From contig NC_088303.1 in NCBI RefSeq assembly GCF_032854445.1, positions 23,601,265-23,665,264 of the forward strand: a stretch of 64,000 nt of DNA, read 5' to 3'. This stretch comes from Liolophura sinensis (taxonomy: Eukaryota; Mollusca; Polyplacophora; Chitonida; Chitonidae). This document shows, piece after piece, positions 9,472 to 64,000 of this stretch. The first letter of the stretch is position 1; the number at the start of each line of letters is the position of its first letter. The notes under the pieces are model-generated. The model saw only the letters and a program-made list of their open reading frames with translations. It did no database searches and was not told where the DNA came from. The position numbers and the translations under genes are program-made.

Positions 9472-19804
<10,333 letters not shown>

Positions 19805-26147: not shown

Positions 26148-26450
26148 TCATAAACTGAGAAAAGTTTGAAGACGTAGAACCCATCTTTCAATGCCTAATG
26201 AGCGCATTGATCGTGCTGAATAAATCACTTCCAGAGGTTTATGGTCTGTGATAAGCTCGAATTCGAGGCCATACAGGTACAGGTGACAATGTTCACATCT
26301 CCATACAACGGCTAAGGCATCTTTTCCCATCTGAGAGTAATGTTTTTCAGTAAGTGCAAGGTTGGCAAAGAGTACAGGTTGATATTCACCGTAACGTTGT
26401 TGTTGCGCTAGTATGAGAGCAAAACTGACTGGACTAGCATGAATAATCAA
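26148..26450 (-). pseudogene. Retrotransposon RNase H remnant
   Basis: The frame shows the order QPVLFANLALTEKHYSQM, then KDALAVVWRCEHCHLYLYG and TDHKPLEV, which is the RNase H pattern of gypsy elements (ALTEKHYSQ, EKEALAV, F.L.TDHKPL). It breaks off at both sides. Confidence 0.85.
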
Positions 26451-26459
26451 TCTGGTTTT

Positions 26460-27284
26460 TGCTTACCGTTGAAAATATGCCAACACGGTGTCACTCGACA
26501 GCTGTACCTTTAATTTGTCGAAAGCGTTTTGCAGCGGTTTGCCTCAAGTCCAATTTTCACTTTTTCTGGTCAGCGAAAATCTGCTGAGCGAAATCAGCAA
26601 TGTACTGGGAGCAACAGTTGACAAGACCAAGGGAACTCAGCACTTCTGATGCGTTGGTTGGTTCTTTCGTCTGTTTAATTGCTTTAATCATTGCTGAATC
26701 CGGATAGGCCTATACTCCATTAGAGGATAGCACGTGTCCCATGGAAACTAACTTGTCCATACCAAATTCAAATTTTTTTCTGCATTGAGTGTTAGTCCAT
26801 TTTCACTCAGTGTTTGAATGACTTTTTCAAGATTTCTGTCATGACTCCCTTTCCACAAGTGATAATGTCGTCGGAAATGTTTCGAACTCTATCACAACCT
26901 CGAAGGACTTGTCCAATAATGTGCTGACATTTCGGGAGCGGCTAATATTCCAAACATCAGATGTTTATATCTGAATAACCCTTTGTGGGCCACAAACGTA
27001 GGAATGTCCCTTGACGATGGTTCCTATTCGATCTGGGAATAGATATCATTTCTGGTATCTATTCGATTTCAGGCCTAATTTGGAGAACACCAGCCAGCAC
27101 CTCGTCCACGGTTGGAATTGCACAACGTTGTTTGTAGCTCGTCTTCGACTTTCTTACGGACTAGGTAAGGTAATTTGCGCAATGGCTGGGCTACAGGCTT
27201 GACTGTTTTGTCCACATGTATTTTGAGCTGAAAGTCTTTGAGTTTAACCAGTCCATTAAAACATTCCTTGTGGTTTATTTTCAA
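26460..27284 (-). pseudogene. Retrotransposon reverse transcriptase remnant
   Basis: Scattered minus-strand pieces recall the domain: VKPVAQPLRKLPYLVRKKVE near 27180, RYKHLMFGI near 26960, an ISDDII catalytic-loop relic near 26865 and a MDKL/MGHVLS piece near 26740. Frameshifts and stops separate them. Confidence 0.75.
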
Positions 27285-35900: not shown

Positions 35901-37478
35901 AAAGTGCCATTCTTGTCGAAGGTATGACATGTTATCTTTGCTAAAAATATTTTTCATTCCTTTATTTGCAGGCTGTCCGGCTACTTTTACGAAGATTGGG
36001 AATGGCTGCTACACAGTTGCGGAGGAAAAAACTGGACTTGCGTATACGAATGCCATCGAATTATGTCAAGGTCTGAATGCCTCACTGGCCTCGCTGGAAG
36101 CTCTGGAGGAATTGAACAGCTTGCAGGAGTATTTAACAAATCTATATCGTAAGAGAATACACATTTTGTCTCACTTACAAAAAAGAGGCAATAGTCTTGC
36201 TCACTAGGACGTAGAAATGGGTATTTGGAGAGAAAATAACAAAACAAAGACCACACTTGCTTATATCAATGAGAAAACTAATACTACTAGTCTTTATGAA
36301 CTAAAAGCCTTGAAATAACTGGACAAAGCCCCTGAATCTGTCTTGCAACCACAACAGGTTATATTGGTCATGCTGTAAACATTGCGACACTAAGATAGCT
36401 CACGTGCAAGGGAAAATTTGTGTTCTCACGAGAGCATATGCCTATTATATATGTCTAGGGCCGTTTCCACAAAGCCACACTACAAAGTTGAGTTAAAATT
36501 TAAAACCAGGGCCGTCTTTATCAAACATCTTAAGACTGATGTGAAAAATTCAAACACAGCTACAACTAAAATGTTTTTCTCTAGAAATTTAAAATTTGAA
36601 CATGAATTTTTTTCTTGTAAAACAGTGTACCAACTACAATTTGATCTCTTTACTGTTAGCCCTTTTAAGCGCTTGCAATTTATGACTTCAGTTGAAAAGT
36701 TGATAAATACTAGCCCTGGTCAAAATGCTTAGGTTTCGTCGTGGCGGTTGAACTTTGTGTTTCGATAACATTGATGATATGATTAAAATGTTAATTTTCA
36801 AGGCCTAAAAATAAGCTCTAAAATTATATTTCTAATTGTCTTGTGGAATCTTAACGCGACCATAGATAGGCTTATAGTGCTGCCTGACTGAAACGCTATG
36901 TTTAAAATACTTGCCACTACTTTCTCCTGTGAGTTAAATCACAGACAATTGATTAGCGTTCTAACGCACTAACAGCTCGTGCTGGCTTCCTCTCCGGTCA
37001 AAAGGGTGTATGTTTCCGCCAGGGTCTGTTCGGTTTCCTCCCACCATAATACTGGCCGCCGTCATAAGAGTGAAATGTTCTTGAGTTCTGCCTAAAATTC
37101 AAATCAAATCAAATAAATAAATACATAAAATCACAGAATCAAGAAAATATATATCACTCTCTTTTAAATAAATACCTTCACCCAGAAGGAAGTAAGATTT
37201 TACCTAAGTATTTCTTTCTAGGGAAAATATTACTACTTTTTTCAGCTCTGATACAGTCATCGGTTTCCAAAAGTTGGCTAATTGGAGCGTACCAAAACAA
37301 CTCCTCGGGTACATTCTTCTGGTTGTCAGGTGCCAAAGTGGTCGGCGATATCTGGGCCCCCGATGAGCCGGACAAGCCTGAACAACAAGACTGTGTGTCG
37401 CTGAGAGCCGATGAGGGCTTTAAGTTGGTTAGCGTCTACTGTGGCGAGTACAATCGCCAGTACATTTGCGAGCTGTAG
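32593..37478 (+). CDS. Secreted apple/PAN-like and C-type lectin domain protein
   Basis: Gene-level entry joining exons 32593-32919, 33054-33117, 35972-36148 and 37246-37478 (801 nt, 266 codons plus stop), with all phases in agreement. A signal peptide (hydrophobic core KLLLLLTDLYYV) is followed by a module with six cysteines (residues about 50-105) resembling a PAN/apple fold. A Thr/Ser-rich linker comes next, then a long-form C-type lectin domain from Cys132 to the end (CPATFTKIGNGCY, WLIGAYQNN, WAPDEPD, ending YICEL). Such proteins act outside the cell in recognition, often immune or adhesive. The sugar-binding EPN/QPD tripeptide reads EPD and no clear WND motif follows, so calcium-dependent sugar binding is doubtful. 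The PAN assignment is weaker than the lectin one. Confidence 0.88.
33054..33117 (+). CDS. Lectin gene exon 2: Thr/Ser/Glu linker
   Basis: 64 nt between ctttacag and GTAAGT, phase 0 to phase 1. It encodes a linker (ETTGLSLTSEEVVPSTTPF) that could carry O-glycans. It is needed to join the phases of exons 1 and 3. Confidence 0.75.
33587..33700 (+). repeat. SINE-like fragment in lectin intron 2
   Basis: The string 'ccgggcactccagtttcctccgcccc' and a decayed 'cttttgagtattgtgttacg' resemble the body and tail of the SINEs here. A similar piece is near 1425. It is too diverged to place in a family. Confidence 0.4.
34910..35245. repeat. Minisatellite, about 33-bp unit, in lectin intron 2
   Basis: About ten units of 'tatcgctcaaaccggtaggggttatgtattgc' with moderate divergence. 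A run of 18 T lies just upstream at 34831. Confidence 0.85.
35972..36148 (+). CDS. Lectin gene exon 3: first half of the C-type lectin domain
   Basis: It encodes CPATFTKIGNGCYTV, the alternating first two cysteines of a long-form lectin domain, then ELCQGLNASLASLEALEE, the family's 'A...C...GA.LA.I....E'. The acceptor is tttatttgcag and the donor GTAAGA, phase 1 in and out. Confidence 0.92.
36507..36718. mobile_element. MITE-like inverted-repeat element in lectin intron 3
   Basis: It starts CAGGGCCGTCTTTATCAAAC and ends, reversed, CAGGGCTAGTATTTATCAAC, giving imperfect terminal inverted repeats about 210 bp apart. The chance open frame here is element sequence. No transposase is present. Confidence 0.55.
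36955..37123 (+). repeat. V-type SINE in lectin intron 3
   Basis: It contains 'cggtttcctcccaccataat', 'ctggccgccgtcataagagt' and the AAATAAATA tail. The tRNA-like head is nearly gone. Confidence 0.8.
37246..37478 (+). CDS. Lectin gene exon 4: second half of the C-type lectin domain
   Basis: It encodes WLIGAYQNN, FFWLSG, WAPDEPDKP, QDCVSL, then YCGEYNRQYICEL and TAG. Core cysteines are conserved. The calcium/sugar tripeptide is EPD and not EPN or QPD. Confidence 0.93.
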
Positions 37479-47520: not shown

Positions 47521-47941
47521 TTAATATTTGTAGCAGATAAGGAATTCTGGGTAATACTGGTCCTTGTCAAAGAGGACAAAGATGCTAGGCTTTTGTGGAT
47601 TGTCCGTGCAGGAGTCGAACAGTTGGTTGGGTTTTCCCGGATCCAAAGGGGGTGGACGCCTCAATTTCTCTTGCCCCTTTGCAGTTTTACCGACCAGCAC
47701 GCGGGCGTAAAACATGAAGCGATGACCGTGTTGATCTGGTTTTGCGTAATGGTTAGATTTGCTGGCATCCACAGCAAAGTAAGCCCCATTGCCATATAAG
47801 GCCCCAACAGCTGAGCCATACAGCCTCCAGTCAAAGTTCTGTTCACAGATGGGGTCGACAGCTCCTGGCGAAGTGCCATGAAATAACTTCTTCTCGTTAG
47901 TTGTTCCTCCTTCGTACTTACGCTTCATTATATTGCTTTTC
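47521..47941 (-). CDS. MIB-PARP last exon, PARP catalytic core
   Basis: It encodes NEKKLFHGTS (NAD-binding His), GSAVGALYGNGAYFA and SNHYA (catalytic Tyr region), RVLVGK, and PSIFVLFDKDQYYPEFLICY before TAA. His and Tyr of the H-Y-x triad are present. The third position falls in PEFLICY and is not obviously Glu, as in PARP7/10/11/12/14/15, so mono-ADP-ribosylation is expected. Confidence 0.96.
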
Positions 47942-50900
47942 CTGAAAAGAGAACCCAAAGCAGTTCAAACATTTGAAAAGAATATCGAACAATGAAATCA
48001 AGTTGGTACTATGCAGTGTATTGCTCTGTCTCGCCCTTTGGTTATAATAATTCAATATACACATGCATTCTCTTTGTCTAAATTTTAAATGTTGGTTAGA
48101 TAATTCTAACCAACACCTGGATAATTTTGTAGATGAATGTTGATTAAACAGTTCCACGCGAAGACACCTTTCTCTCTTTATCTAAAAGGTTTACAAGATA
48201 ATTCTAAAAAAAAGCAAAACAACTGGACAATTTCTGTAGTTGAATGCTGATTATATAGTTCCGCGCGAGGACATAAGTGGTGATGCTAAACCTAAATAAG
48301 CCTACGTGAGTCACACATCAAGGTATACATCAAGGTTAGGCTTGTCTAGTGGTGGCAGTGATGTAAAGCCGCGGCAGAGAGCGGCACATGCGACGTAACG
48401 ACTATGATACAGTGTATGGCAAAGTGGCGTCATAGTGGGAGATCTACTTACATTTGAAACGTCAACCACAGGGAAGGGTTTTGTACGCGCTTTATGTAGA
48501 TAATGGAGGCGTTGGGCATTGTCATGAGAAAAACATCCTTTACTGTAGCAAACTTGTCCGACGAGGAAGGGATGTTCACTATTTTCATGTCATAGGTGCC
48601 CATTGGTCCCCACTCAACAGGTATGTTCGTGGAAGTCGTAGCTTCCTTCTTGGCCTTCTCATGCAGCCTGAAACGTGTCATTGTGCGGATAGACTGATAA
48701 TTTTGTGTATAACGTTTGCATCACACTTTCAGTTGTTTCATCTACATGTGCCTATGATCAGATTCCTCATCCCCTCCAACTCAAGTCCATACACATTTAT
48801 TTACTTGGACTACAGTTTAGACAGCGAGGAACATCTCATATCTTTATATCTATGGACACAACCCTGTGCGTGTAAACGCACGTGAGTCGGGCCATGGCGG
48901 CATCTGCACGCCAACAGGGATCTAGGGAGATGATTTTAAAGTTCCAGGTTCTAGACGGCAGTATACAGAATAGGGTTGAAACAAAACCAGGTGAGGATAG
49001 AAACAACTTTACACAGTGCAATTTGTATGGGCGCCTTGACGCTTCCATGACCTAATGGAAAGAGCGTCAGGCTCCCAGAAAAATGGTTGCTGCCTCGGTT
49101 GGCATTCAGAACTTAAAGGTTAGAGCAAAGAAACAGGACTGGTTTACCCAGTGTCAGTATAATGTTACTGATCATGTCTGATGTCTTCGGCTTTCAGTGG
49201 CGGCAGCACTTTGGTGGCATGTACTCGCCCTGCCACAAGTAGACAAAGCATATGCACACACACCGATAAATTGCTTAGTGCAATACGATGTAAAACCCAT
49301 AAATTAAAAAGCAAACATTACATAGCGCAGTATATATGGCACCCTATTACAACTACTCAATACAGCAAACCATATGTTGTTTTTGATAACACCATATAAC
49401 TACCTGATAGCTTTCTTCACATCTTCAGGGCCCATGTAGGCTGGGCGTCGTCGTAAACGTGTCTCTTTGTCTGACTGACAATTTCTCTGTTTCAGATTGG
49501 CGAAGTCAACTTCATAACGAACGCTGTCGATTTCGATGATCTCCTCAGTCATGACACTGGAATTACACCAATAGGCCTGTTCTAGTTCAGTCTGCAGCTT
49601 AGTAACCTGCCTCTTGTCCTTTTGCTTTTCCTGGAGGAGAAAAAATTATTAAAATATTTCATTACTGTGAGAGATGGTTCTAGAAATCTTGGACGATCGA
49701 TTGTGCACATCATACACCTGCAGCTTAAAGATCATGGGAAATCTTCATCAGATACAATCCTTTGCAGCTAGCTCAGCAAAGAAATATTTCCATTGTCTAC
49801 ATTATAAATTTCTTTTAGAAAAATGGACCCCTTGACGCCCTCTATATTTAAACTCTAGAAATTTACCTAATAACCATCACCAATACCATCGCCATTATCA
49901 TTACCAATATCATCATTGCTATCACCACCACCACAACCATCATCATAATTACCTCTAGATGTTAGGAATTACCTTTTGACCACACGGTACCCAGCCGTCA
50001 TCACTCTCCCAGTACCACGTCCACTGAGTGAGAAAGCGCTCATGGTCATCTCCGCTTACGTATGAGACTGTAGACAGGCGACGAACTGGGATGCTCATAT
50101 CGTCAGTTTTGGCTGTCATTGTATCAAGGTCTACCGAAAACATCTGACTGAAAAATACATATTCAACACAAACGCATATAAACATTCTGGCAATCAGTCA
50201 AGTCTTTCACACAGACAAATATCGCTCAGTATGAAATTAAGTAAAAACTGGTAAAATGATAACATGAAGTATCCCATTTTATGTTTGAATCAGTTTTACA
50301 ACAAAGCATGGATGGACTGTAACCAACATAATTAATGCTTGAGACAAACAGATAAGCCTTTAGCTCTGTATTACTCGGAATTACACACAAGTATTCTGTA
50401 TTACTCAGAATTACACACACGTATTCTGTATTACTCAGAATTACACACACGTATTCTGTATTACTCAGAATTATACACACGTATTCTGTATTACTCAGAA
50501 TTACACACACGTATTCTGTATTACTCAGAATCACTTACAAGTATGTCTACACTAAACTTTACCAATACCATGGACACAGAAGCATGGATAATCCACGGAA
50601 CCCTTGGTTACAGAGCCACCCTTCTAAAATAGCTGAGTAGGATCCAGTCGTGACAGCACAGCAGATCTGCTCCAGCATCTACCTTCAGACCTCAAGTGCC
50701 CTGACTTACCCTTCTACAATAACAGACCACGATCCACTCTTGACATCACAGTAGCTTTGCTCCAGCATTAACTCTGAAGAGCTGTGATCACCTATACTGT
50801 CACAGCCCTATCTTGTTCCATAAGCTTACCTCGAACACCTCTGTACTTTCCTTGCTGGTCCAACTTTCCTTGCAGTCCAACTCCAACCGCCATGATTGAA

Positions 50901-53900
50901 TGCATAATCCTAAGAGTGAAGCGATAATTATCACTGCCACTATTAGGCAAGTTAGACCTTTTGAAACGCAATACTGGATAATTTTTTAACATCAACCTCC
51001 CCAGTAATGACACAGAACTAACCCATAATGAACATTGATGAATAAAAAAAATTCTCAGACAATTAAAGAATAGATTAAACAAGATGTACACAATATAATA
51101 ATTGCTAGTAATGTCAGTAGTTATCTCCCTTGTATGGGCCGTGAGGAGTATGCATTCAAACATGGCGGTTGGAATTTATCCAGTTTCATGCTTGTGTGTA
51201 TTTATTAGTGATGACTCATGGGAACACCTATCTGAAATTGATACCTGAAACGACTGTGACTGCGGACAGACAAATTATTTGGTGCCCAGCAGTGGTATAT
51301 TAAAGCTAGCAAGGCAATTACAGAGGTGTTCAAGGTAAGCTTATGGAACAAGACAGGACTGTGATAGTATACCTAATCACAGTCCTACAGGGTTATTCCA
51401 GCATGTATCTGCAGATCTCATGTGCCCTGACTGGCTCTTCTACAATAGCAGAACACGATCCAGAGTTGATCACACAGTACCGTAGCTCTGCCTCCTCATG
51501 CATTTTCTTATCACAAGTTCCTTAACTTACCCTTCAACAATAACAGAACACGATCCAGTGTTGACTCTGGAGTAGCTCTGTTCAAGTAGCTGAACATTAT
51601 CCTCGCTGAAGGAGCACCATTTCACCCCACGTTGCAACGTTTTGTACTGCCACACGTAGGGTAGTAGCAGATGGTGATTTGGGCAGTCTTCTCCAAAGGC
51701 ACATCGTCCACTGATGAAGTACAGGCAGATGTCTGCATCAGTCTCATCACTTATGTGTTCAGTACGTTCAATGGCTGCAGAATCTGAGGGCTTCGGTGGG
51801 GTTGGCTGGGGGGTGGATGGCACATGTGCTTTGGCGCTTCCCCCTTTGCTCGTTGTTTCAGCCTGTCGTTGTGGCACCTGAACCTGAGTCGAGCTGTTAC
51901 GATGGAAACACAAGACCATAAGACACTCTGGTAACGATAATAACGATAAAAGGAAGAAATCACATTCCACTCTTAAAACTAAAATGTAACATTTAACACA
52001 GTAAATATCATAAGGAGTGACTGGACTTATTAGAGTTATCTGACCACTTTGATAAAGCGTTCATATCTTAACGCTCGTTCAGTTGTTCGCATTCCAGCTC
52101 CATTAACAAATGGTTATCAGCATTTTAAATTAACACACGAAACAGCGTTTTAAAAAAAACAACCCTTTTTATGGAGTTGGGATATGAAAAAATTTGAATT
52201 TAGAGTCTGGAAACATTATCCCTGAATAAAACTGGCCCGATACATGTAACTCTTATAAGTCCAGGCACTCCTGGTGATCTGTGCAGTGTTAAATATAACA
52301 CTTAAGTTTTAAGAGAGTCCTTGTATTATATTCTCTGGCAGTAAAACAAAAGCTGTTTTCCACCCCACTTTTGTACTTACTGTGTTGAAGAAAACTGTAC
52401 GATCAATCCCTTGATATGTGGATCATCAATTAGATCTAGGGGTGACTTGCCCTGGTGGTTCATGTGGGAGAGGCTGGCGCCCTGCTGGGCAAGAAAGCAG
52501 GCCGTAGCGACACACATTTTACTTTCATCTTGACTCATGCTGAGCTGACCATGAATCTGGAAGGGAGCGAAATGTTATTCTTCTCAGTTTCCCGTCGGAA
52601 TTTTCTTTTAAAGCAAAACATACCAAATTGCTAATGTTTCTTTCCAATGAACTATTTAAAGTGTCTTACACCTGAATTATTATTATATATTTTTTAAATT
52701 TTTTTAAACCAAATAAAAGTTTAGTGAAAGCTGGTCTACACAGAGCGTTAGCACGTCGACATTATCGAGAGAGGACTAGGTTGGTGTGACCTACGTCACG
52801 ATTAACCACGGTCTTTAACGGGGGAGGTATTTTCAATTTAAATGTTTCAAATATTCAGTGTATACCAAATACGTTCGGCTACACGTATTTAAATCGTTAT
52901 AGCCGGTCTCTAAGCGACGTTAATGTTATCAGATGTACAGTCATGAAGTAAATAGGTAAAGACTACGTCACATTCTCTTCGCCCAGTCGAATAACGGCGT
53001 GTTTGATCGAAGACAATTTTTTTTAAGATAACTGCCTCCATTCGCACCAGCTCTTTCCTCCGTCATGACGTTTTATTTTACACTTAACTGGGCGAAATTA
53101 CACCGGAAAGATTTTTAACATTCTGCTTTCGCTGGAAATATATGTTTCACCCCAGATGATGTCTGATCCTTTTATCCCTGTTTCAGTCTTAACTTTAGCA
53201 CATGTATCTATATATAATTACAAATTTCCAGAACGTATCTTGTATTCCTGGAAATTCATGACAGCAAATTCCAAACCTCGTCAAGTAAGCCTGGCGATAT
53301 TTCGGTGAGATTTCTAATTTCTTCACAACAAACTATCGCATCAGTGTGAGGTGCAAATACGTATCCCCGTCTTAGTTACGGCCTGTACTAACGGCGAATT
53401 TTCTAATTACTCAAACACGAACTATCGCATCAATGTTAGGTGTAGACACTTATCCCTGTTCTAGTTACCGCCTGTGTTAACGGCAAAGTTTCTAATTTCT
53501 TAACAACGGACTATTGCATCAATGTTAGGTATAGCCACTTATCCCCGTTCTAATTACGGCCTGTAATTAGATGTTAGCTTACGGCCTGTAATCAATGTTA
53601 GGTGTGAACACTCATTCCCGTCCTAGGTACCGCCTCTACTAACGGCGAGTTTTCAAATTTCTCAGCTACGGATTTTCGCATCATTGTGAGATGCAAACAC
53701 GTATCACCGTCCTACTTACGGCCCGTACTAACGGTGAGCTTTCTAACTTCTCAACAACGGACTTTCGCATCAGCGTCAGGTGCAAACAGGTGTCCCCGTC
53801 TTCATCTTCAACATTCAGGTCGGCGCCTGTGGAAATATCAAAGTATCACATAAATAGCTAAATACACCAACGTCACATCAAAACACCAATGGTTGCTTCA

Positions 53901-56900
53901 AATCACACCAAAATTAAACTGTCACAACCACAATTACACTGTTCATCTAAAGTCACCGACACAAACCACCACAACCACCGTTACACTGAAACGCAAGAGA
54001 TACAGTGAAATAAAGCCTTTCATTTTAAAAGATCTCCCAGAATACGAACACATAGTATGGTGTTAACGCGATGATCTATCTGTATGACCATGCAACGCAG
54101 CAAGCAGTAAAGCTGTTAACACTACAGCTCTTACCTTTGGTAAAGAGATGCTCTATCTATCACAGCAAGCAGTAAAGGTGTTAACACTATAGCCCTTACC
54201 TTGATAACGAGGAGCTGTACAATATAAGTATCATAGACACAGCCAGCAGTAAAGGTGTCAACACTATAACATTTACCTGTGGTAAAGAGATGCTCTATCT
54301 ATCACAGCAAGCAGTAAAGGTGTTAACACTATAGCCCTTACCTTGATAACGAGGAGCTGTACAATATAAGTATCATAGACACAGCCAGCAGTAAAGGTGT
54401 CAATACTATAACTCTCACCTTTGGCAACAGGAACTGTACAATATAAGTATCACAGACACAGCTAGCAGTAAAGGTGTCAACACTATAACATTTACCTTTG
54501 GTAAAGAGATGCTCTATCTATCACAGCAAGCAGTAAAGGTGTTAACACTATAGCCCTTACCTTGATAACGAGGAGCTGTACAATATAAGTATCATAGACA
54601 CAGCCAGCAGTAAAGGTGTCAACACTATAACTCTCACCTTTGGCAACAGGAACTGTACAATATAAGTATCACAGACACAGCTAGCAGTAAAGGTGTCAAC
54701 ACTATAACATTTACCTTTGGTAAAGAGATGCTCTATCTATCACAGCCAGCAGTAAAGGTGTCATTACTATAACTCTCACCTTGGGCAACATGAGCTGTAC
54801 AATATCTGTATGCCCCTGAGACACAGCCAGCAGTAAAGGTGTCAACACTGTAACCTTACCTTTGGGAACTATGAGAGCGATATGCCCCTGAGACACAGCC
54901 AGCAGTAAAGGTTATGTTACCTTTACCTTTGGTAACGGGGAGCTGTACAACATCTGTATGATAGACACAGCCAGCAGTAGAGGTGTCAACACTGAAATCT
55001 TACCTTTGGTAACGAGGAGCTTTATAAGAGCAGTATCAACTGAGACACAGCCATCAGTTGAGGTGTCAACACTGTAACCCTTACCTTTGGTAACAAGGAG
55101 CTCTATCAGATCAGTATGCCCCTGAGACACAGCCAGCAGCAAAGGTCTCAACACTGTAAGCCTACCTTAGGTAAGAAGGAGTTCTAAGAGAGCAGTATGC
55201 CCCTGAGACACAGCCAGCAGTTAAGGCCTCAACACTCTCTTAGAACTCCTTGTTACCCAAGGTAGGCTACCTTAGGTTAAAGGAGTTATAAGAGAGCAGT
55301 ATGCCCCTGAGACACAGCCAGCAGTGGATGTGTCAACACTGTAACTCTTTTCTTTGGTAACAGGAGCTCTATAATATCCATATGATAGACTCCGCCTGCA
55401 GTAGAGGTCTCAACAGTATAACCCTTACCTTTGGTAACGGGCAGCTCTATGATATCTGCATGATAGACTCAACCAGCAGTAGATGTGTCAACACTGTAAT
55501 ACTTACCTTTGGTAACGGGGAACTCTACAATATCTGTATGACAGACTCAACACTGTAGCCCTTACCTTTGGTAACAGGGAACTCTACAATATCTGTATGA
55601 CACACTCAACACTGTAACCCTTACCTTTGGTAACGAGGAACTCTATGATATCTGTATGGCCCTTGATCACAGACAACATGAGAGGTGTGTGTTTTTTGGT
55701 GTTTCTAATGTCGATGTCCGCTTTACCCTGGCAATAGCAAATTAAACACAACAGTGTAAAATGATTTTGACAAACAACTTACGCACTTTTTAATCAACCA
55801 CGCTAGGTTGTTTTCAGTGAATTCGGTGTGTCTAGTCAAAAAGTTGAGTATACAATTTAGCCTATCGTTTTAGTCGAATCTAATAAAACCTGCAACATTT
55901 GAGCATAGCCAAAAGATTCGATTTTTTTTTTGATTGGTGTTTTACGCCGTACTCAAGAATATTTCACTAATACGACGGCGGCCAGCATTATGGTGGGTGG
56001 AAAACGGGCAGAGCCCGGGGGAAACCCACGACCATCCGCGGGTTGCTGGCAGATCTTCCCACTTTCGGCCGGAGAGGAAGCCAGCATGAGCTGGACTTGA
56101 ATTCACAGCGACCGCATTGGTGAGAGGCTCCTGGGTCATTACGCCAAAAGATTCGAGTCTAGTGACAGCATAAGTCTGGAGAGACAGATATTAAGTCTCA
56201 TCATGTAGGCCAGTTTAGTGAAACCGGCGTGCAAAGTGAGGCAAAAAAACGGGTCAAATAGGTCCGAAAAGATAATGAGTAAAATGAGACACCCGATTCA
56301 AGTTAGGCAGATGCTTCTAGTCTGGTAGTTGAGTCTAGTTAGAACTGATGCTGGACACCATCACTGTATCTATGCAAGTGAGACAGGTAATTCTAGCGAA
56401 ACGTCTGAGTCAAGCGAAACGTCTGAGTCAAGAGAGGCAGGTGAGCCTAGAAGATACCTTGCGTCTGTCCAACATCATTGAAAACTGTTAACTGCTTCTC
56501 TTTGCATGATTCCGTCCAGTTTTTCGTACTTTGTATACTTTCTTAGTTCTTTTGGTGGTTTGTGTTATACGTCATTTTTGGGAATTGACCTTACGATTAA
56601 TGACTCACAGAACCCCCAGAAAAAGCGGTCGGGTTGGAATTTTTCTTTTTTTAAGCAGACAAAAAAGAATAACTGCCAGAAAAAGATCTCGGGCCCCGAA
56701 ATAACAAGCCAATCGGATTACGCTTTATTTTGTTTGAAACACTCATGCATGTGACACTATAACCCGGTGATTATCTCGGGGCTGGAGATAACTAAATCCG
56801 GTTCCGTGATAATCAAAATCATTTAACCGCAGGTATCGCGATTTAGACGAAACCACGAACCAGGTTGTATTCCGACTGGCTGACTCTCTCGGGGCCTGAG

Positions 56901-59900
56901 ATCTTTTCCTTGGAGTTTTTCTTTTTCGACTGCATTACCATGATTAAAACAGTTTTAAATAGTAATATTTAAGACAGAACAAAGCAAGGGTATAATTGCG
57001 ATTTTCATGTAAAATAAATCCATAAATCTATCCGCAAATGCTGGATAGAAACTTACCACAGTCAGCAACGTGTCACAAGTTTGCTTGTGGCCATTCAGTG
57101 CTGCTAAGTGAAGGGCAGAAAATCCATCCTCCTTCTGGATGTCAACAATTTGTCGACATCTCCGTAATACTTTCTCGATCACACTGTGATGAAACGAAAA
57201 TAAATACACTTGTTATAAATACGAAGATATATGTAAGACAAGGATGAATAAAAGAACAGCACACTAACAGCAATAAAGATAAAAAAGATCCAAGTTTAAA
57301 ACCATGATACTTTGCCGATAACTCACAAGTTGTTTCCCTCTTTTGCTGCAACGTGTAGAACGTTGAAGCCATTCTTGTTTTGTACAGTGAAGTCGGTGCT
57401 TGGATAGTTCACTATCATGTCTATGATTTCTCTATTGCCCTTACGAATGGCGTCGTGAAGCGGTGTGTCCCCAACAGAGTCCTGGAGATAAAAACACAAA
57501 GTCATCTAACCAGAGTGTCCAAAAAGAACAATTTCTCTTCTTCTATTGAAAACCCCTGTGTTATAAATGAATAAAAAAACATTAAACGAGAACTGTATCA
57601 AGATATCAAGACAAAACTCGGCCATTCATCAAAAAAAGTGATGTGTATCCATGGTTTTTCGATAATTGGATTAAACCAAATTGGTACCAGAGGAACTCAC
57701 CACTGAGGGCATCAAAACCACCAGGCCCAGTTGCTCAAAAGTGTATTAGCTAATGCTAGTATTAAGTTATATTTTATTTTTAAAATTTCACCAGCCAAAG
57801 CAATTGTCCAAAATCAAAGTATAACGGCAACAGTTTTAGTTCATATTTGATATACTGTACGTAATTTCTTTTAGACTAAGCACAAACTTGAAAGACTTGG
57901 CTTAAAGTTAAATCTGGTATTAGGTCTTAAAACAGTTTCGAACAACTGGGCCCTGAATAACAGTTCACGCGCGTATATAGAGGTAACCATAGCAACGGGA
58001 AAACACATTGTTTCAGTAGGGTATTCGTGTAAAACATGAATTTGGTAGTACTATACTGTATTGTACAAAAACATGTAGTATAGGTAGGAACAACCAAGCT
58101 GTATACCAGAAGTACGACGTTGTCAAGCAATATTTTGACCTGAGTACATCAGAAATAATAATTAGATTTAAGTGATAGTGGGAACAGATGTCAGGTGGCG
58201 ACGATCACAACTAATCCCTAAGTAATGGTGACACAGGGATTACGTCTATGTGTGAAATCGAATTAAAAGTCATGTATGGTACGTTTTATTATTTTATTGG
58301 ATTCTGTAAACAGGACAGCTCTATACATGTGACGACTAGCAAATATTACAGTTGTAATAGTCTTTTAAAGGTCCTCGTTATTTGACGATTCTTTGGAACG
58401 GACAACTCATAGAAAAGCCTTCAAAGCAATGCCCGTAAGCCCGGCATATATACGAGAGCTTAAGACCCAACTCAACTCGAATGTTGCGTAGTACTTTAAG
58501 CGCTCGTGCATATGAAATAACGATGTTATTTAACTGGAGCAGTACTCCTATCATTACGTTTACGCCGTTGATTCTTCAAGTGGCACGGTCATCAGCGACT
58601 GGGACAAACTTCATGCAACTAATTGTGTTCAGTCGTGCCCTATGCTCTTGTGTATGAAGAACTTTACAAACATGGCGTCCACATGCGTTTGACGAATACC
58701 TAAAACTCGTCGTACTACTATTGCGTCGGGTCTCGGCACTACAGTACAATGATCTACTAAATAACGACGTGACTTATCTAGAGTTGTACTGTATTTCAGT
58801 CGTTACGTGTATACCAGTTGAGTCCAAAGTCCAATGGCCATCAGCGACTGGAACCAACTGTGAACGACCAGTTTAGTCGAGCTGAGTTTTAAATTTATTT
58901 TCTTTCTACGAACTCGATCTGTGTAAATTCGTTCGTTCACTTGGCTGTTATTTTTAAGAGGAACAGTCTTTTCCAAAACAATTTATTTGAATGAACCTAC
59001 AAACATGTCGAATCTTTATCAAACATTTTCATTCAGTTTTCATGATTATTTTTCTCAAATTCAGTACGGATTTGCCCTCCGCAAAAAATGTTTAGAGTAC
59101 TTCTACACTCGAAAATAACAATTAATACCGTTCTAAACAGATAATATTACCTGAGTGTTGACTTTGCACTTGTGGTTGAGAAGAGCTTTGACGCACTTCA
59201 GGAGTTGCTTGTTAACAGCCAAATGCAGGGCGCTATATCCAGCATTGTTAACCGCATCTCTGTCTGCACCCCTCTCTAGGAGCAGCTCTGTTATTTCTGG
59301 TTCATCGCTACAAACATACAAGCACACTGATCATTTATCTCTAGACTGGTCTAATGTGCCTGGAATCACATAGAGTAATGATTTATCTTACCTTGGATGA
59401 CATATTTCTTTGCTTTGATGGTGAACTAAATGAAACTTGTCTCTTAGCTTGTGGAAGCAGGACCATTCCGATGCCATTACCTTGTCCTAGGGCTGATTCA
59501 CTTAAAATGTTCAAGCTAGCTCTGATGTGCGAAATATATGTGAATTTGTAAGTATCAAATTTGAACATTTAATAGTATAATACATCAAAGTACTACATCA
59601 CAACGTTCCAGGTTAATCTAACGCCGTGATGCACAAACGGGATCGTCTTTACAATATTCTATCTTGGTTAAACACTACAATGTTCTCCGCTGAAGTACAG
59701 GACTCCAGGTTGAGCTAACACTTTGTTGTGTAAAACTGAGTTGACAGTACAGTACAATAATCCAGATTAAACTAACACTGTGAAGTGAAAAGCTCACTTG
59801 ACACTACAGTATAATGATCTAGGTTGAGCTAATACTGAAGAGAGCAAAACTTGATTGACACTACAATAATCCAGATTGAGCTGACACTGTGATGTGCAAA

Positions 59901-62900
59901 ACTCACTTGACACTACAGTACAATGATCCAGGTTGAGCTAACACTTTGATGTGCAAAACTCACTTGACACTACAGTACAATGATTCAGGTTGAGCTAACA
60001 CTGTGATGTGCAAAACTCACTTGACACTACAGTACAATGATCCAAGTTGAGCTAACACTGTAATGTGAAAAACTCACTTGACACTACAGTACAATGATCC
60101 AAGTTGAGCTAACACTGTGATGTGAAAAACTCACTTGACACTACAGTACAATGATCCAAGTTGAGCTAACATTGTGATGTGCAAAACTCACTTGACACTA
60201 CAGTACAATGATCCAGGTTGACCTAACACTGTGATGTGAAAAACTCACTTGACACTACAGTACAATGATCCATGTTGAGCTAACACTGTTATGTGCAAAA
60301 CTCACTTGACACTACAGTACAATGATCCAGGTTGACCTAACACTGTGATGTGAAAAACTCACTTGACACTACAGTACACTGATGCAAGTTGACCTAACAC
60401 TGTGATGTGAAAAACTCACTTGACACTACAGTACAATGATCCGAGTTGAGCTAACATTGTGATGTGCAAAACTCACTTGACACTACAGTACAATGATCCA
60501 GGTTGAGTTAATACTGAAGAGAATAAAAAACTTGGTTGACACTACAGTACAATGATTAAAGCTCAGCTAACACTGTGGTTTGTGCAAAACTGTGTTAACA
60601 TTGAGATAACGCTGTGAATTGTGCGCGTATGGGCTAGACTGTACTGGACCACTCCATTTTATAGATGCCTGTCATTGTTTGGGAGATGTATGACTGACCC
60701 ATAGATTGAGTAGAGAAGGGCAGTGTCCCCATCTTCATCCCGTAACTCCAGCTTTGCACCAGCGGTCAGAAGTACCAGGACCACTTCCCTGTGACCCTGA
60801 TGACTGGCCACCTGTAGGGCAGTCTTATTGGAGCTCTTCTTGTCCACCTGATCAACACAGATCATGTTGGTGAGACAATCACACAAACCATTCAACAACG
60901 CAGATCACGCTTATGAGACAACTGCACAGACCATACAACAAAGCAGACCACGCTTATGAGACAACCGCAAAAACCATTCAATAACGCAGATCACGCTTAT
61001 GAGACAACACACAGACCATTCAGCAACACAGACCAAACTGGTGAGACCACCGTACAGAGCAACAACACAGACCAAACTGGTGAGACAACTGCATAACCCA
61101 TTCAACAACACAGATCACACTGGGGAGACAACCACACAAACCATTCAACAACACAGACGACACTTTTGAGACAACCACACAAACCGTTCAACAACACAGA
61201 CGACACTGTTGAGACAACCACACAAACCGTTCAACAACACAGACGACTATATTGAGACAACCACACAAACCGTTCAATAACACAACGACACAAACCATTC
61301 CACGGTATTACTGTATTAAAATACAGTTATTAATGACAGCCATTAATGTTCAACTTAGTTTTTAACTAAACACCATTAACTTCGAAAGATAGATATAAAC
61401 GTTTTTGTAAGCCTTTAATCATCTTTGTGAAATCACTGTCAGTTTCTATTTACGATAGAAACGAAGCCAATTTGCAAAGGCATTGATAAGTAAACCTTCC
61501 CTAAAGAATAAATAAAAGAATGATGCAAATATCAAATGAAAGCGTGTAAAAAATTATTTTTAGATGTGGTTTTTAATATTACACAAAAGAGTATTTGAAT
61601 ATGTTTGTTGTAAGGTAGATATTTGGGACCATCTCTTGGTACTGATCATCTCTGCTCAATAATGTTCTGAAAAAGGATGTTTAATAAATTTATTTCAATG
61701 TATATTTGTTTTTTTACATCAAGACCATTCATTTAATCTGACTTAGGATATTATTTATGCACATATTAAAACATAATTATGATTAGAACTCAGGCTGAAT
61801 AAATCTGATAGCTGAAAAGATAAAATTCTAGTACAATTCTATTTATTAAACATGCGTCACATTTGATTTGAAACATTATTATGCAAAGACAATATGCACC
61901 AAGGAATACAAAAAATATTTTCAAATGTTTCTTCCCATGAAGGAAAAATCGAAAAATACCATATTTTACAAGCAACTTTTCGGATCCTTTCATTCTAGCT
62001 TTATGTAATTTTTATGTTTTCTCCACCTTCAACATTGTCAGTTATATCATTTTCAACCTTGTCTCCCTGGCTAAATTACGAAGGAAACGTGTTTTCAAAC
62101 ATATACCGCGCGTAAATATAAGTTTATATCGTGAAGTGTAAATAACACATAACACTTCACATGTTCTGACCTTGTCCGGGAAATTTGTGAGGATATCACG
62201 GACGGCCTGGGTGTGACCTTCTGCAGCCTCCTTGACCAGATCATCTTGGCCCGATCCAAGCCTACGAAGATCCCTCATGAATAAGCTCATTAGTCCCGAA
62301 AAAAGATCTGTATGTACAGCGATAAACCACCAATCAGAATAAGACAGGGAATTACCCGCTTTAGACAGGTAAATTTCCTTATGTTTGTGCTTTTAATAAG
62401 ATAGAGCTAACTCAAGTTGTAGATACAGGAAAACTTCTATATTGGTACATGCCAATTGTTTACATGTAACATCGGTTGCACGTATGGTTACCATAGTGAG
62501 GGAGAAGTTATTAGTATTTCACAACTATATCACTGCACTAGCTATCACTGTTTGTAGACCCTGAACATCACAAAATGGCCTTCGAAAGTCATGTCAGAGT
62601 GGCCAATCGTTAAAGACCACTTATCCTCAACCAATATGGTGAACGCATCTCTATTACTTTATTTATTTATTTGATTTGTGTTTTACGCCGTAGTGAAGAA
62701 TATTCCACTTATACGACAGCGGCCAGAATTATGGTGGGAGGAAACAAACAAGGGAAGAAACCCACGACTATCCGCAGGTTCTAGGCTACTTGTACACGTG
62801 AGAAAATTCGTTTTTAGTAACAAGAAGTCGGTGGTCTACCCTGGTTTCTCCGACTTTCTTTACCCGCAAGACTAACCACCATCATTTAAGTGATTTTTTT

Positions 62901-63482
62901 TTCGGTCAAACAATAATTTAAAAAGTAATATTTTATTATATTTCAGAAATTCAGAAGATGTAGGGCCAATTGCTTTTTATCAAATGCTTCCTGAGAGAAG
63001 GGAGTGTCATATCATTATTCCTTGTTTAAATCCGTATTTGCCATTTATTTTCTTAGGCTTTTAAGACAACAGGAAGGTCATAGACCTATGACAGTATGAA
63101 GAAAAGAAGATATCATTTTTGTCAAGTCAAAATTAAGACACGACTGATAGTACTGTGTACAAAACGTCAATACCGCATGTATTAATCAGTGTAGAGTGGC
63201 AAGGTACATGCAAAGTGTGACATGTAATAGGAAACAACCCATACCATTTTAAAATTTCAAACCTCTATTTCAATTACCCACTGTAATAAAGCTGTTTCAT
63301 ATAAATAGCCCCTCACCTGTGTCGCCATCATCATCGTCATCCTGGGTGTTGCTGGTGTCCTGGTCACCGTGTCGTACCAGGGTACAGCACGACGGATTGA
63401 AACACCACGTCATTCCGTTCACCTCCACGTGTACATCGCCGTCACCATCCACCTTTTTCACCTGTCCTACCTCGTCCAATGC
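47521..63482 (-). CDS. MIB-PARP fusion: Mind bomb-like ankyrin half joined to CCCH, WWE and PARP domains (5' end outside the window)
   Basis: Gene-level entry. From ANK exon 60699-60847 to the stop at 47521 there are twelve exons, 2376 nt, 791 codons plus stop, and all eleven junctions agree in phase. Two further exons lie upstream (62171-about 62289 and 63317-63482), and the start is beyond the right edge. Order: SH3_15/REP-like repeat (GDGDVHVEVNGMTWCFNP), about eight ankyrin repeats that follow the Mind bomb series one for one, a CCCH zinc finger, two WWE domains and a PARP catalytic domain. Mind bomb is a ubiquitin ligase that uses its N-terminal half to bind Notch ligands and C-terminal RINGs to ubiquitinate. 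Here no RING is seen and a probable mono-ADP-ribosyltransferase takes its place. CCCH-WWE-PARP is the layout of PARP12/13-type proteins, and WWE can bind ADP-ribose. Role and partners are inference. Confidence 0.85.
48452..48667 (-). CDS. MIB-PARP exon, N-terminal part of the PARP catalytic domain
   Basis: It encodes VEWGPMGTYDMKIVNIPSSS, then IIYIKRVQNPSLWLTFQ, the PARP family stretch 'I..I.R.QN..LW..Y'. It lies between cgtttcag and GTAAGT, phase 2 in and out. Confidence 0.93.
49045..49300 (+). repeat. Degraded tRNA-derived SINE in a MIB-PARP intron
   Basis: 'gacctaatggaaagagcgtc', 'ctggtttacccagtgtcagtataatg' and 'ggcggcagcac' recall the Meta-type SINE in order, with heavy decay. Confidence 0.45.
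49404..49630 (-). CDS. MIB-PARP exon, end of second WWE domain
   Basis: It encodes LEQAYWCNSS, then SVRYEVDFANLKQRN and RLRRRPAYMGP. This is the usual second half of WWE ('YEVDF..M.Q.N..T...R.VRRRP'). Phase 0 to 2. The donor AG|GTAGTT is weak but phase-correct. Confidence 0.9.
49870..49945. repeat. CAT/ACC trinucleotide tract
   Basis: Imperfect (ATC/ACC)n run in the intron just after exon 49973-50147. It has no coding role. Confidence 0.7.
49973..50147 (-). CDS. MIB-PARP exon, start of second WWE domain
   Basis: It encodes MSIPVRRLST, the end of the first WWE unit, and LTQWTWYWESDDGWVPCG, the W-W core of a second WWE domain. The acceptor is tatttttcag and the donor AAG|GTAATT, phase 2 to 0. 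Confidence 0.92.
50370..50550. repeat. 30-bp minisatellite, about six copies
   Basis: Highly uniform units of 'gtattctgtattactcagaa' plus 'ttacacacac'. Because 30 is a multiple of three, frames stay open on both strands, producing spurious ILYYSELHTR-type peptides. It lies in the intron upstream of the second WWE exon. Confidence 0.92.
50610..51500 (-). repeat. Copies of the WWE exon end with its 5' splice site
   Basis: Segments near 50615-50695, 50695-50775 and 51410-51500 resemble, on the minus strand, the end of exon 51531-51893 and its donor (ggatcgtgttctgttattgt, GAAGG|GTAAGT). The copy ending near 50706 keeps GTAAGT. The others are decayed. All lie in the intron after that exon. Confidence 0.7.
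51531..51893 (-). CDS. MIB-PARP exon, linker, CCCH zinc finger and first WWE domain
   Basis: It opens with a Ser/Thr/Pro-rich linker (PSTPQPTPPKPSDS). Then comes a C-X7-C-X5-C-X3-H finger (CLYFISGRCAFGEDCPNHH), as in PARP12/13, followed by a WWE-type strand (LPYVWQYK, GVKWCSFSEDN). It starts and ends in phase 2 (acceptor cgtaacag, donor GG|GTAAGT). Confidence 0.93.
52381..52556 (-). CDS. MIB-PARP exon, last Mind bomb-like ankyrin segment
   Basis: It encodes CVATACFLAQQGASLSHMNH then QGKSPLDLIDDPHIKGLI, corresponding to Mind bomb '[29 protein letters not shown]', the last piece before the linker and RINGs. It ends ACA|CA|GTAAGT in phase 2 and joins the CCCH exon in frame. The fusion boundary lies at this junction. 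Confidence 0.94.
53290..53719 (-). repeat. Array derived from ankyrin repeat 7 exon and its donor
   Basis: On the minus strand four to five diverged units of about 88 bp follow the exon. They contain GACGGGGATACGTGTTTGCA, 'ctgatgcgaaagtccgttg', 'gaaaactcgccgttagta' and 'GGCCGTAA'. They are recognisable copies of the exon's second half plus the 5' splice site. Confidence 0.8.
53720..53826 (-). CDS. MIB-PARP exon, ankyrin repeat 7, source of a second array
   Basis: It encodes ADLNVEDEDGDTCLHLTLMR then KSVVEKLESSPLVRA, like Mind bomb 'KLDVQDKDGDTPLHEALRH'. The donor is GCC|GTAAGT. The end of the exon with its donor is repeated downstream. Phase 1 to 0. Confidence 0.9.
54040..55624 (-). repeat. 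Array derived from ankyrin repeat 6 exon and its donor, roughly twenty units
   Basis: On the minus strand units read 'acacctctactgctggctgt', 'gtctcaggggcatactga', 'tagagctccttgttaccaaa', GGTAAGGGTTACAGTGTTG. Some still translate as TPLLLAVSQGHTDLIELLV, an ankyrin repeat. Units nearest the exon are shorter. Those at 54.1-54.8 kb form a higher-order repeat of about 220 bp. Many units keep a usable GTAAGG-type donor but none has an acceptor. Confidence 0.88.
55625..55727 (-). CDS. MIB-PARP exon, ankyrin repeat 6, source of the downstream array
   Basis: It encodes GKADIDIRNTKKHTPLMLSV then IKGHTDIIEFLVTKG, matching Mind bomb 'GNANLDVQNVNQQTALHLAV'. The last two thirds of the exon and its donor (ACCAAAG|GTAAGG) are amplified about twenty times in the following intron. 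Phase 0 to 1. Confidence 0.92.
55922..56146 (-). repeat. V-type SINE with target-site duplication
   Basis: The SINE body and tail (T run at 55923-55931 on the plus strand) end in the head region at 'gggtcattacg'. The flanks 'ccaaaagattcga' are repeated on both sides (about 55909-55921 and 56144-56156). The missing box A part shows a 5'-truncated insertion. Confidence 0.88.
57057..57183 (-). CDS. MIB-PARP exon, ankyrin repeat 5
   Basis: It encodes VIEKVLRRCRQIVDIQKEDG and FSALHLAALNGHKQ, like Mind bomb 'DEKKDDGYTALHLAALNNH'. The donor is GTG|GTAAGT, phase 2 to 0. Confidence 0.94.
57327..57481 (-). CDS. MIB-PARP exon, ankyrin repeat 4
   Basis: It encodes DSVGDTPLHDAIRKGNREII, then TVQNKNGFNVLHVAAKEGNN. 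It follows Mind bomb 'DSEGDTPLHDAISKK' and 'NNNGFNALHHAALRGN' almost word for word. The acceptor is ttatctccag and the donor TT|GTGAGT, phase 0 to 2. Confidence 0.95.
57722..57955. mobile_element. MITE-like inverted-repeat element
   Basis: Left end CAGGCCCAGTTGCTCAAAAG and right end, reversed, CAGGGCCCAGTTGTTCGAAA form terminal inverted repeats 234 bp apart. Both ends continue with related 'taatgctagtattaa' and 'taataccagatttaa' motifs. It is intronic and non-coding. Confidence 0.7.
57956..59150. other. Intronic stretch, nothing recognised
   Basis: Part of the intron between ankyrin repeats 3 and 4 of the MIB-PARP gene. Only short chance frames are visible. Confidence 0.5.
59151..59307 (-). 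CDS. MIB-PARP exon, ankyrin repeat 3
   Basis: It encodes DEPEITELLLERGADRDAVN, then YSALHLAVNKQLLKCVKALL. It matches Mind bomb 'GGADLNARN...TPLHIAVNKGH...VK.LL'. The acceptor is tgtttgtag and the donor CAG|GTAATA, phase 2 to 0. Confidence 0.94.
59690..60600. repeat. Minisatellite, about 60-bp unit, around 14 copies, with donor-like motifs
   Basis: Units of 'cttgacactacagtacaatg', 'atccaggttgagctaacact', 'gtgatgtgcaaaactca'. In the sense direction of the gene (minus) each unit contains CAAGTGAGTTTT, a 5' splice-site-like string. The inner units are nearly identical. It lies in the intron between ankyrin repeats 2 and 3. Confidence 0.92.
60699..60847 (-). CDS. MIB-PARP exon, ankyrin repeat 2
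   Basis: It encodes NKTALQVASHQGHREVVLVL then AGAKLELRDEDGDTAL. This parallels Mind bomb 'TALQAASQNGH..VL..LL......EDKDGD'. The acceptor is tgttgatcag and the donor GG|GTCAGT, phase 0 to 2. Confidence 0.92.
60850..61290. repeat. Minisatellite next to an acceptor site, about 43-60-bp unit
   Basis: Units of 'gagacaaccacacaaaccgt' and 'tcaacaacacagacgacac'. On the minus strand they read as pyrimidine/GT-rich segments with TCTCACCAG or CTCAACAG, and the last one runs straight into the real acceptor (ctgtgttgatcag) of exon 60699-60847. Confidence 0.88.
61291..62170. other. AT-rich intron, nothing recognised
   Basis: Between the first and second ankyrin exons of the MIB-PARP gene. No repeat family or exon could be identified. 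Confidence 0.5.
62171..62289 (-). CDS. MIB-PARP exon, start of the ankyrin region
   Basis: It encodes QDDLVKEAAEGHTQAVRDIL and then TNFPDK, like the first ankyrin repeat of Mind bomb (L..AA..GDL..V..IL). It ends AAG|GTCAGA, phase 0, fitting the next exon. The acceptor is uncertain: AG sites at the 62289, 62278 and 62265 areas would all give phase 2. Confidence 0.7.
62655..62790 (-). repeat. V-type SINE, truncated
   Basis: Tail and body segments (ttacgccgtagtgaagaata, cggccagaattatggtgg, cgactatccgcaggtt) in minus orientation. The head is missing. Confidence 0.8.
63317..63482 (-). CDS. MIB-PARP exon, SH3_15/REP-like repeat
   Basis: It encodes LDEVGQVKKVDGDGDVHVEV, then GMTWCFNPSCCTLV and an acidic run (DDDDDGD). 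This is the pattern of the repeat found between the ZZ region and the ankyrins in Mind bomb and in HERC2-type proteins. It begins after gttgtag, phase 0, and ends ACACAG|GTGAGG, phase 1. That phase does not fit the next exon I can see, so another exon probably lies between. Confidence 0.75.
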
Positions 63483-63883: not shown

Positions 63884-64000
63884 ATTTTTGAGGCTGTCAT
63901 AAAAAGTTTGCATTGAATTCATAGTCAATGGTTTCTCTTAATTTTAAGTCTCTCAGTCCTGAGGCCGTTAAGTATGGGAAATGTTGCTCGTATAATGGCT

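Follow-up and report, generated by a model that had tools for sequence, protein, structure and literature searches.

The DNA analysed here (the window) is a stretch of 64,000 nt from the chiton Liolophura sinensis, located at C9:23601265-23665264 of a 609-Mb assembly. Its minus strand carries what is very probably a single gene joining the recognition head of a Mind bomb 2 (MIB2) ubiquitin ligase to the tail of a PARP12-type ADP-ribosyltransferase (ART). Fourteen exons with AG/GT borders extend from 63482 to 47521, where the stop codon ends, and 13 of 13 junctions are phase-matched over 892 codons. A preliminary description of this DNA had proposed a Mind bomb-PARP fusion from 11 of 11 junctions and 791 codons: the agreement in phase stands, the counts do not. 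It had also suggested looking for MIB/HERC2 and ZZ domains beyond position 64000, and these lie there in seven further exons encoding MIB_HERC2-ZZ-MIB_HERC2, which extend the gene to the equivalent of window position 73087. The joined translation of all 21 exons, 1240 codons with zero stops and zero frameshifts, is letter-identical to an NCBI protein of 1240 residues (P0001) named 'E3 ubiquitin-protein ligase MIB2-like'; the NCBI annotation already joins identical exons. Because the genome paper deposited its own annotation at figshare (PMC11068029), P0001 is presumably NCBI's own automatic gene model.

The Mind bomb part enters the window with exon 8 of 21 (63317..63482, minus strand like all exons below; phase 0 to 1), which encodes the end of the second SH3_15/REP repeat (Pfam SH3_15, 3.9e-7). 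Exon 9 (62171..62307; phase 1 to 0), a linker plus the start of the ankyrin region, aligns with chiton MIB2. Ankyrin repeats then fill exon 10 (60699..60847; Pfam Ank; phase 0 to 2), exon 11 (59151..59307; Pfam Ank, 1e-10; phase 2 to 0) and exon 12 (57327..57481), the last of these carrying GDTPLHDAI and NKNGFNVLH and showing 70% identity with the chiton MIB2 exon. Three more ankyrin exons were assigned by phased exon reading: exon 13 with GFSALHLAALNGH (57057..57183), exon 14 (55625..55727) and exon 15 (53720..53826). The last ankyrin exon, exon 16 (52381..52556), contains QGKSPLDLIDDP and ends in phase 2 at the donor ACA|GTAAGTAC. All four ankyrin motifs quoted in the preliminary description are thus present.

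An intron of 487 bp without any N (51894..52380) separates the Mind bomb part from the PARP part. Exon 17 (51531..51893) encodes a Ser/Pro/Thr-rich linker of about 51 residues, the last CCCH finger and the first part of WWE1; exon 18 (49973..50147) holds the rest of WWE1 and the start of WWE2, and exon 19 (49404..49630) contains WWE2 with Gln1001 (Pfam WWE, 8.8e-5). The PARP catalytic domain begins in exon 20 (48452..48667) and is completed in exon 21 (47521..47941; Pfam PARP, 4.5e-21), which includes H1122, Y1155, I1221 and the stop codon. Degenerate copies of adjacent exon ends, in tandem or stray, such as NTGSCSVIVEG-like pieces, are scattered in the introns (window 53.3-53.7, 54.1-55.6 and 50.7-51.5 kb), and comparable intronic pieces occur in a PARP12-like paralogue described below.

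Domains and their closest relatives

Taken one by one, ten single-exon frames gave the Pfam matches listed above together with a second ankyrin exon (9.6e-6) and a second WWE just under the cut-off (5.1e-4), and four of the ten matched no Pfam family. On the whole 1240-residue protein, the head matches MIB_HERC2 (7.8e-42, two stretches), ZZ (4e-10), SH3_15 (1.6e-35, two stretches) and Ank_2 (2.4e-43), and the tail matches WWE (5.7e-12, two stretches) and PARP (1.4e-22), in agreement with the SH3_15, Ank, WWE and PARP domains named in the preliminary description. The CCCH finger it also named is present as a C-x8-C-x5-C-x3-H pattern in exon 17, despite scores under the cut-off for all CCCH Pfam models on this protein (best 17.2 bits against 29). 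Pfam detected no RING family at E 0.1, no SAM domain at E 0.1 or better, and none of the tandem CCCH families of the PARP12 upstream region in P0001.

Sequence matches to solved structures allow each part to be placed more precisely. For the head, the MIB1 MZM-REP structure is matched at 2.4e-110 and the MIB1 ankyrin structure at 1.6e-67 as a single unbroken stretch; some unrelated ankyrin proteins outscore the latter by adding up several stretches. The ZZ stretch retains nine of nine Cys/His residues. At the other end, the tail matches the PARP12 catalytic structure at 6.7e-44, and the central ZnF5-WWE1-WWE2 unit of ZAP at 7.6e-18 over residues 2-200 of the 201-residue query (199/201). Alignment with PARP12 confirms the His and Tyr singled out previously (H1122, Y1155) and adds a third catalytic position, I1221; His-Tyr-Ile (H-Y-I) is the triad of PARP12 itself. 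Gln1001 of the chiton WWE2 sits opposite the second Gln of ZAP FQGMIQTN, which, judging from WWE structures, is presumably Q668. In ZAP, WWE2 has been described as the ADP-ribose binder, attaching to poly(ADP-ribose) with a strength reduced by Q668R (PMC11361444), and only one of the two WWE domains as functional (PMC11269756).

Parental genes and the junction

Both presumptive parents survive on the contig that bears the fusion. The canonical chiton MIB2 is intact at C9:20.991-21.006 Mb with both RINGs present, and the fusion head is 64% identical to it over 714 columns. Canonical MIB2 (CCA|GTAAGTAC) and the fusion (ACA|GTAAGTAC) have the last-ankyrin donor in common, at the same place and both in phase 2. 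An in-frame TAA (52379-52377) overlaps this donor in exon 16 of the fusion, and canonical MIB2 splices past the corresponding TAA. In two RING-less MIB2-like copies at C9:23.52-23.53 and 23.56-23.57 Mb, which share 91% identity over 390 columns and stop at the old last-ankyrin donor, the donor is degraded to AAA|GTAAAAGT and reading continues into the stop. Third codon positions of the fusion head are only 52% identical to those of the MIB2 parent; retention of the donor at this divergence, together with its loss in the copies that stop, suggests that it is still in use. When the two RING peptides of the chiton served as query, no RING relic better than E 1.9 was found in the whole window, whereas the canonical locus was recovered at 7e-45 and 4e-45. 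The two RING-less copies likewise gave no RING match at E 1 up to C9:23529000 and 23573500. Further out, weak matches appear at L024 (0.046, with internal stops) and L025 (0.57 and 0.42).

The relative of the tail is an intact standalone PARP12-like gene at C9:20.483-20.490 Mb, which is 63% identical to the ZnF5-WWE1-WWE2-ART part of the fusion over 439 codons, reaches 72% in the last exon and has its intron positions in common with it. Retroposition was rejected as a source of the tail on account of these common introns. In the standalone gene, a single exon of 423 codons encodes PARP12-type CCCH fingers (zf-CCCH_PARP12, 2.9e-10) together with the last finger and half of WWE1. Fusion exon 17 aligns with just the last 106 residues of that exon, the DNA-level alignment starting only at 51740, and nothing in the window matches residues 1-317 at E 1 or better, which leaves the PARP piece without a start of its own. 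The tail enters through a new acceptor and the Ser/Pro/Thr-rich linker. A PARP search with at least 18 matches placed the only PARP domain of this stretch of C9 in the fusion.

Both halves have evolved under constraint. The ratio of nonsynonymous to synonymous divergence (dN/dS) is about 0.15 for the head against its MIB2 parent (669 codons) and, by the Nei-Gojobori method (NG86), about 0.19 for the tail against its PARP12-like parent (439 codons), with near-saturated dS values of 1.46 and 1.40, respectively. The similarity of these dS values fits, without proving, the idea that the two duplicates arose at a similar date. Constraint on this scale, with 1240 codons free of stops and frameshifts, speaks against a gene out of use. 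An assembly error bringing the halves together could be invoked given a HiFi coverage of only 14x (PMC11068029), yet the window and a 10-kb flank contain zero N or ambiguous bases, and among 37 scored of 269 candidates in the assembly no second copy of either half was found, the next best matches being the parents at 57-74% identity. We regard a decaying or mis-assembled join as very improbable.

Evidence on the age of the head is less sharp. Its identity is 65% with chiton MIB2 and at most 61% with the other species compared (up to 435 columns), values that lean towards an origin in the chiton lineage. The assembly search revealed more MIB2-like exons at C9:23.38, 23.48, 23.51-23.53 and 23.55-23.57 Mb; this cluster (L018-L020, L041 and L042) lies outside the window. 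In a tree of MIB proteins (19 rows, 783 columns) the four chiton MIB2-like rows formed a group with 42% bootstrap support (200 trees), which the approximately unbiased (AU) test did not reject (p 0.385).

Other coding sequences were noted elsewhere in the window. Paired-box (7.2e-33) and homeodomain (1.8e-24) frames lie close together on the plus strand (3367-3786 and 3914-4993), as in a Pax-like gene. The same strand has a 546-residue frame at 14601-16238 with NIT (1.1e-15), HNOBA (2.9e-5) and guanylate cyclase (1.8e-34) domains, and a C-type lectin exon at 37074-37475 (2.9e-5). A reverse-transcriptase RNase H fragment (3.4e-20) is found on the minus strand at 26151-26462.

A probable single gene and its predicted function

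We put the probability that a single fused MIB2-PARP12 gene is real at roughly 0.9. The fusion first proposed from the window is supported by the donor shared with MIB2, the parents intact on the same contig, the lack of any RING relic, a PARP part without the 5' portion of its gene, and the identical NCBI model; it can now be described more closely as derived from Mind bomb 2, with an ART of the PARP12 type. Architecture and splice compatibility are read from the sequence itself; we infer transcription as one mRNA. When a combined mechanism is added, in which the MIB2 head directs mono-ADP-ribosylation, the probability falls to about 0.6.

A number of observations weigh against this reading. 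No transcript spanning the ankyrin-CCCH junction was seen among 5 matches from 309 candidates, obtained with a 370-residue piece (residues 100-370), a search that speaks only for records of about that length in the database used. Junction donor and acceptor each rank 13 of 20 within the gene, and at least eight nearby scored AG sites outscore the acceptor used; splice strength was for these reasons rejected as proof of the fusion. The fusion is known in one species only. Its head has drifted fast: its branch measures 0.66, that of canonical MIB2 0.14. Of the 225 positions that do not vary among 15 other MIB2 rows, the head keeps 178 (28/38, 20/21, 28/40, 20/26 and 82/100 over five regions); with the other 47 altered and the drift so fast, it may no longer choose the same substrates. 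In the tree of MIB proteins, neither the time of duplication nor the branching point of the head receives clear support. Lastly, a RING missense allele of Drosophila Mib2 is flightless, an indication that the RING matters in some tissues (PMC5345843).

The average junction sites and the missing transcript would also fit two adjacent genes: a RING-less MIB2-like gene ending at the TAA at 52379-52377 and, beginning within the 487-bp gap, a short PARP gene of its own, with an in-frame ATG at 51919 as candidate start and the NCBI model as a false join. RING-less MIB2-like copies that end at this very point do exist nearby, at the two C9 positions given above, and the exon 17 frame stays open upstream past an ATG. 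We nevertheless judge this arrangement improbable. The donor is kept as in MIB2, which splices past its TAA, whereas the copies that stop have lost it; the PARP part has neither the first 317 coding residues of its paralogue nor its own first exon; a pyrimidine stands at -3 of the ATG at 51919, a weak start context; and the NCBI model joins both parts. Neither AATAAA nor ATTAAA occurs in the 487-bp intron, but both are equally missing from the 1,000 bp that follow the last stop codon, so poly(A) signals do not discriminate between one gene and two.

Under the favoured reading, a single fused gene, a chiton MIB2 duplicate would have lost its RING exons, after which the old last-ankyrin donor would have come to splice to a duplicated 3' piece of a PARP12-like gene (ZnF5-WWE1-WWE2-ART). 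In Drosophila, most of the embryonic muscle work of Mib2 falls to its MIB and ankyrin regions and depends little on the RING (PMC5345843), and a RING-less head copy could for that reason have survived until capture of the tail; the two RING-less chiton copies look like this earlier stage. The resulting protein would retain the MIB2 recognition head (MIB_HERC2-ZZ-MIB_HERC2, REP and ankyrins), choose its partners as MIB2 does, and use the predicted H-Y-I transferase to attach single ADP-ribose units from NAD+, instead of ubiquitin, to those head-bound partners or to itself. The WWE2 pocket may additionally read ADP-ribose chains and so hold the fusion protein at modified complexes.

A real fusion could also serve another purpose, such as mainly self-modification, a scaffold that reads ADP-ribose, or innate immunity as in relatives of PARP12 and ZAP, which are often described as antiviral. 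Retention of ZnF5-WWE1-WWE2 as a unit and the fast evolution of the head agree with such a role, as does the binding of poly(ADP-ribose) by ZAP WWE2 (PMC11361444). We consider it rather unlikely: the RNA-binding fingers upstream of ZnF5 are absent, the H-Y-I positions are retained, unlike in an inactive ART, and the head is under purifying selection with its zinc ligands intact. The antiviral role raised in the preliminary description, in particular, appears weakened because only the last CCCH finger of PARP12 and ZAP is present, the paralogue's upstream fingers having no match in the window.

Novelty and implications

The fusion brings together known modules in an arrangement that we met with nowhere else and, to date, in a single species. 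With MIB2 it shares the N-terminus, MIB_HERC2-ZZ-MIB_HERC2, the SH3_15 repeats, the ankyrins and the last-ankyrin donor, and it differs in carrying a PARP12-type tail and no RING fingers. With PARP12, which along with ZAP/PARP13 belongs to the CCCH-WWE-WWE-ART mono-ADP-ribosyltransferases, it shares the last CCCH finger, two WWE domains and an ART with H-Y-I; the upstream CCCH fingers are lacking, and the MIB2 head occupies their place. In tankyrases a SAM domain lies between the ankyrins and the PARP domain, and the triad is H-Y-E. They and other ankyrin-PARP proteins resemble the fusion in having ankyrin repeats ahead of a PARP domain (PMC4245714), whereas the fusion has no SAM (E 0.1), MIB2-derived ankyrins, a PARP12-type PARP domain, a WWE pair and Ile at the third position. 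A tankyrase-like origin was rejected for want of a SAM domain and because the triad is wrong. The U-box-PARP protein of Dictyostelium (clade 3) similarly unites ligase and ADP-ribosyltransferase histories (PMC4245714), but there the ligase-type domain is present, while in the fusion it is lost and an ART substituted.

These precedents of different make-up, ankyrin-PARP proteins and the Dictyostelium U-box-PARP, are the ones we found (PMC4245714); no description of a MIB2 or Mind bomb-PARP-WWE architecture appeared in titles and the opening parts of abstracts among the open-licence papers listed. Two homology searches, from which we considered the best 120 of 395 matches (7992 scored candidates) and the best 120 of 578 (3866 candidates), returned MIB and PARP domains together only in P0001, and in none of the other 119 proteins of either set, within the length range searched.

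If the proposed function holds, an ordinary MIB2 ligase would operate in the same animal beside a MIB2-derived head that mono-ADP-ribosylates cargo of the same kind, in other animals Notch ligands or muscle and trafficking partners. This is a tentative proposition. Were it true, ubiquitin and ADP-ribose would compete for one set of substrates, and the RING-less copies would be head-only competitors. The fusion bears on the intertwining of ubiquitin and ADP-ribose signalling and offers a natural template for proximity-directed ADP-ribosylation. The exchange of RING for ART on a natural ligase head would be a clean test, set by evolution, of whether substrate choice depends on the head alone. 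Because both parents persist on the contig of the fusion, a single animal allows comparison of head, tail and fusion.

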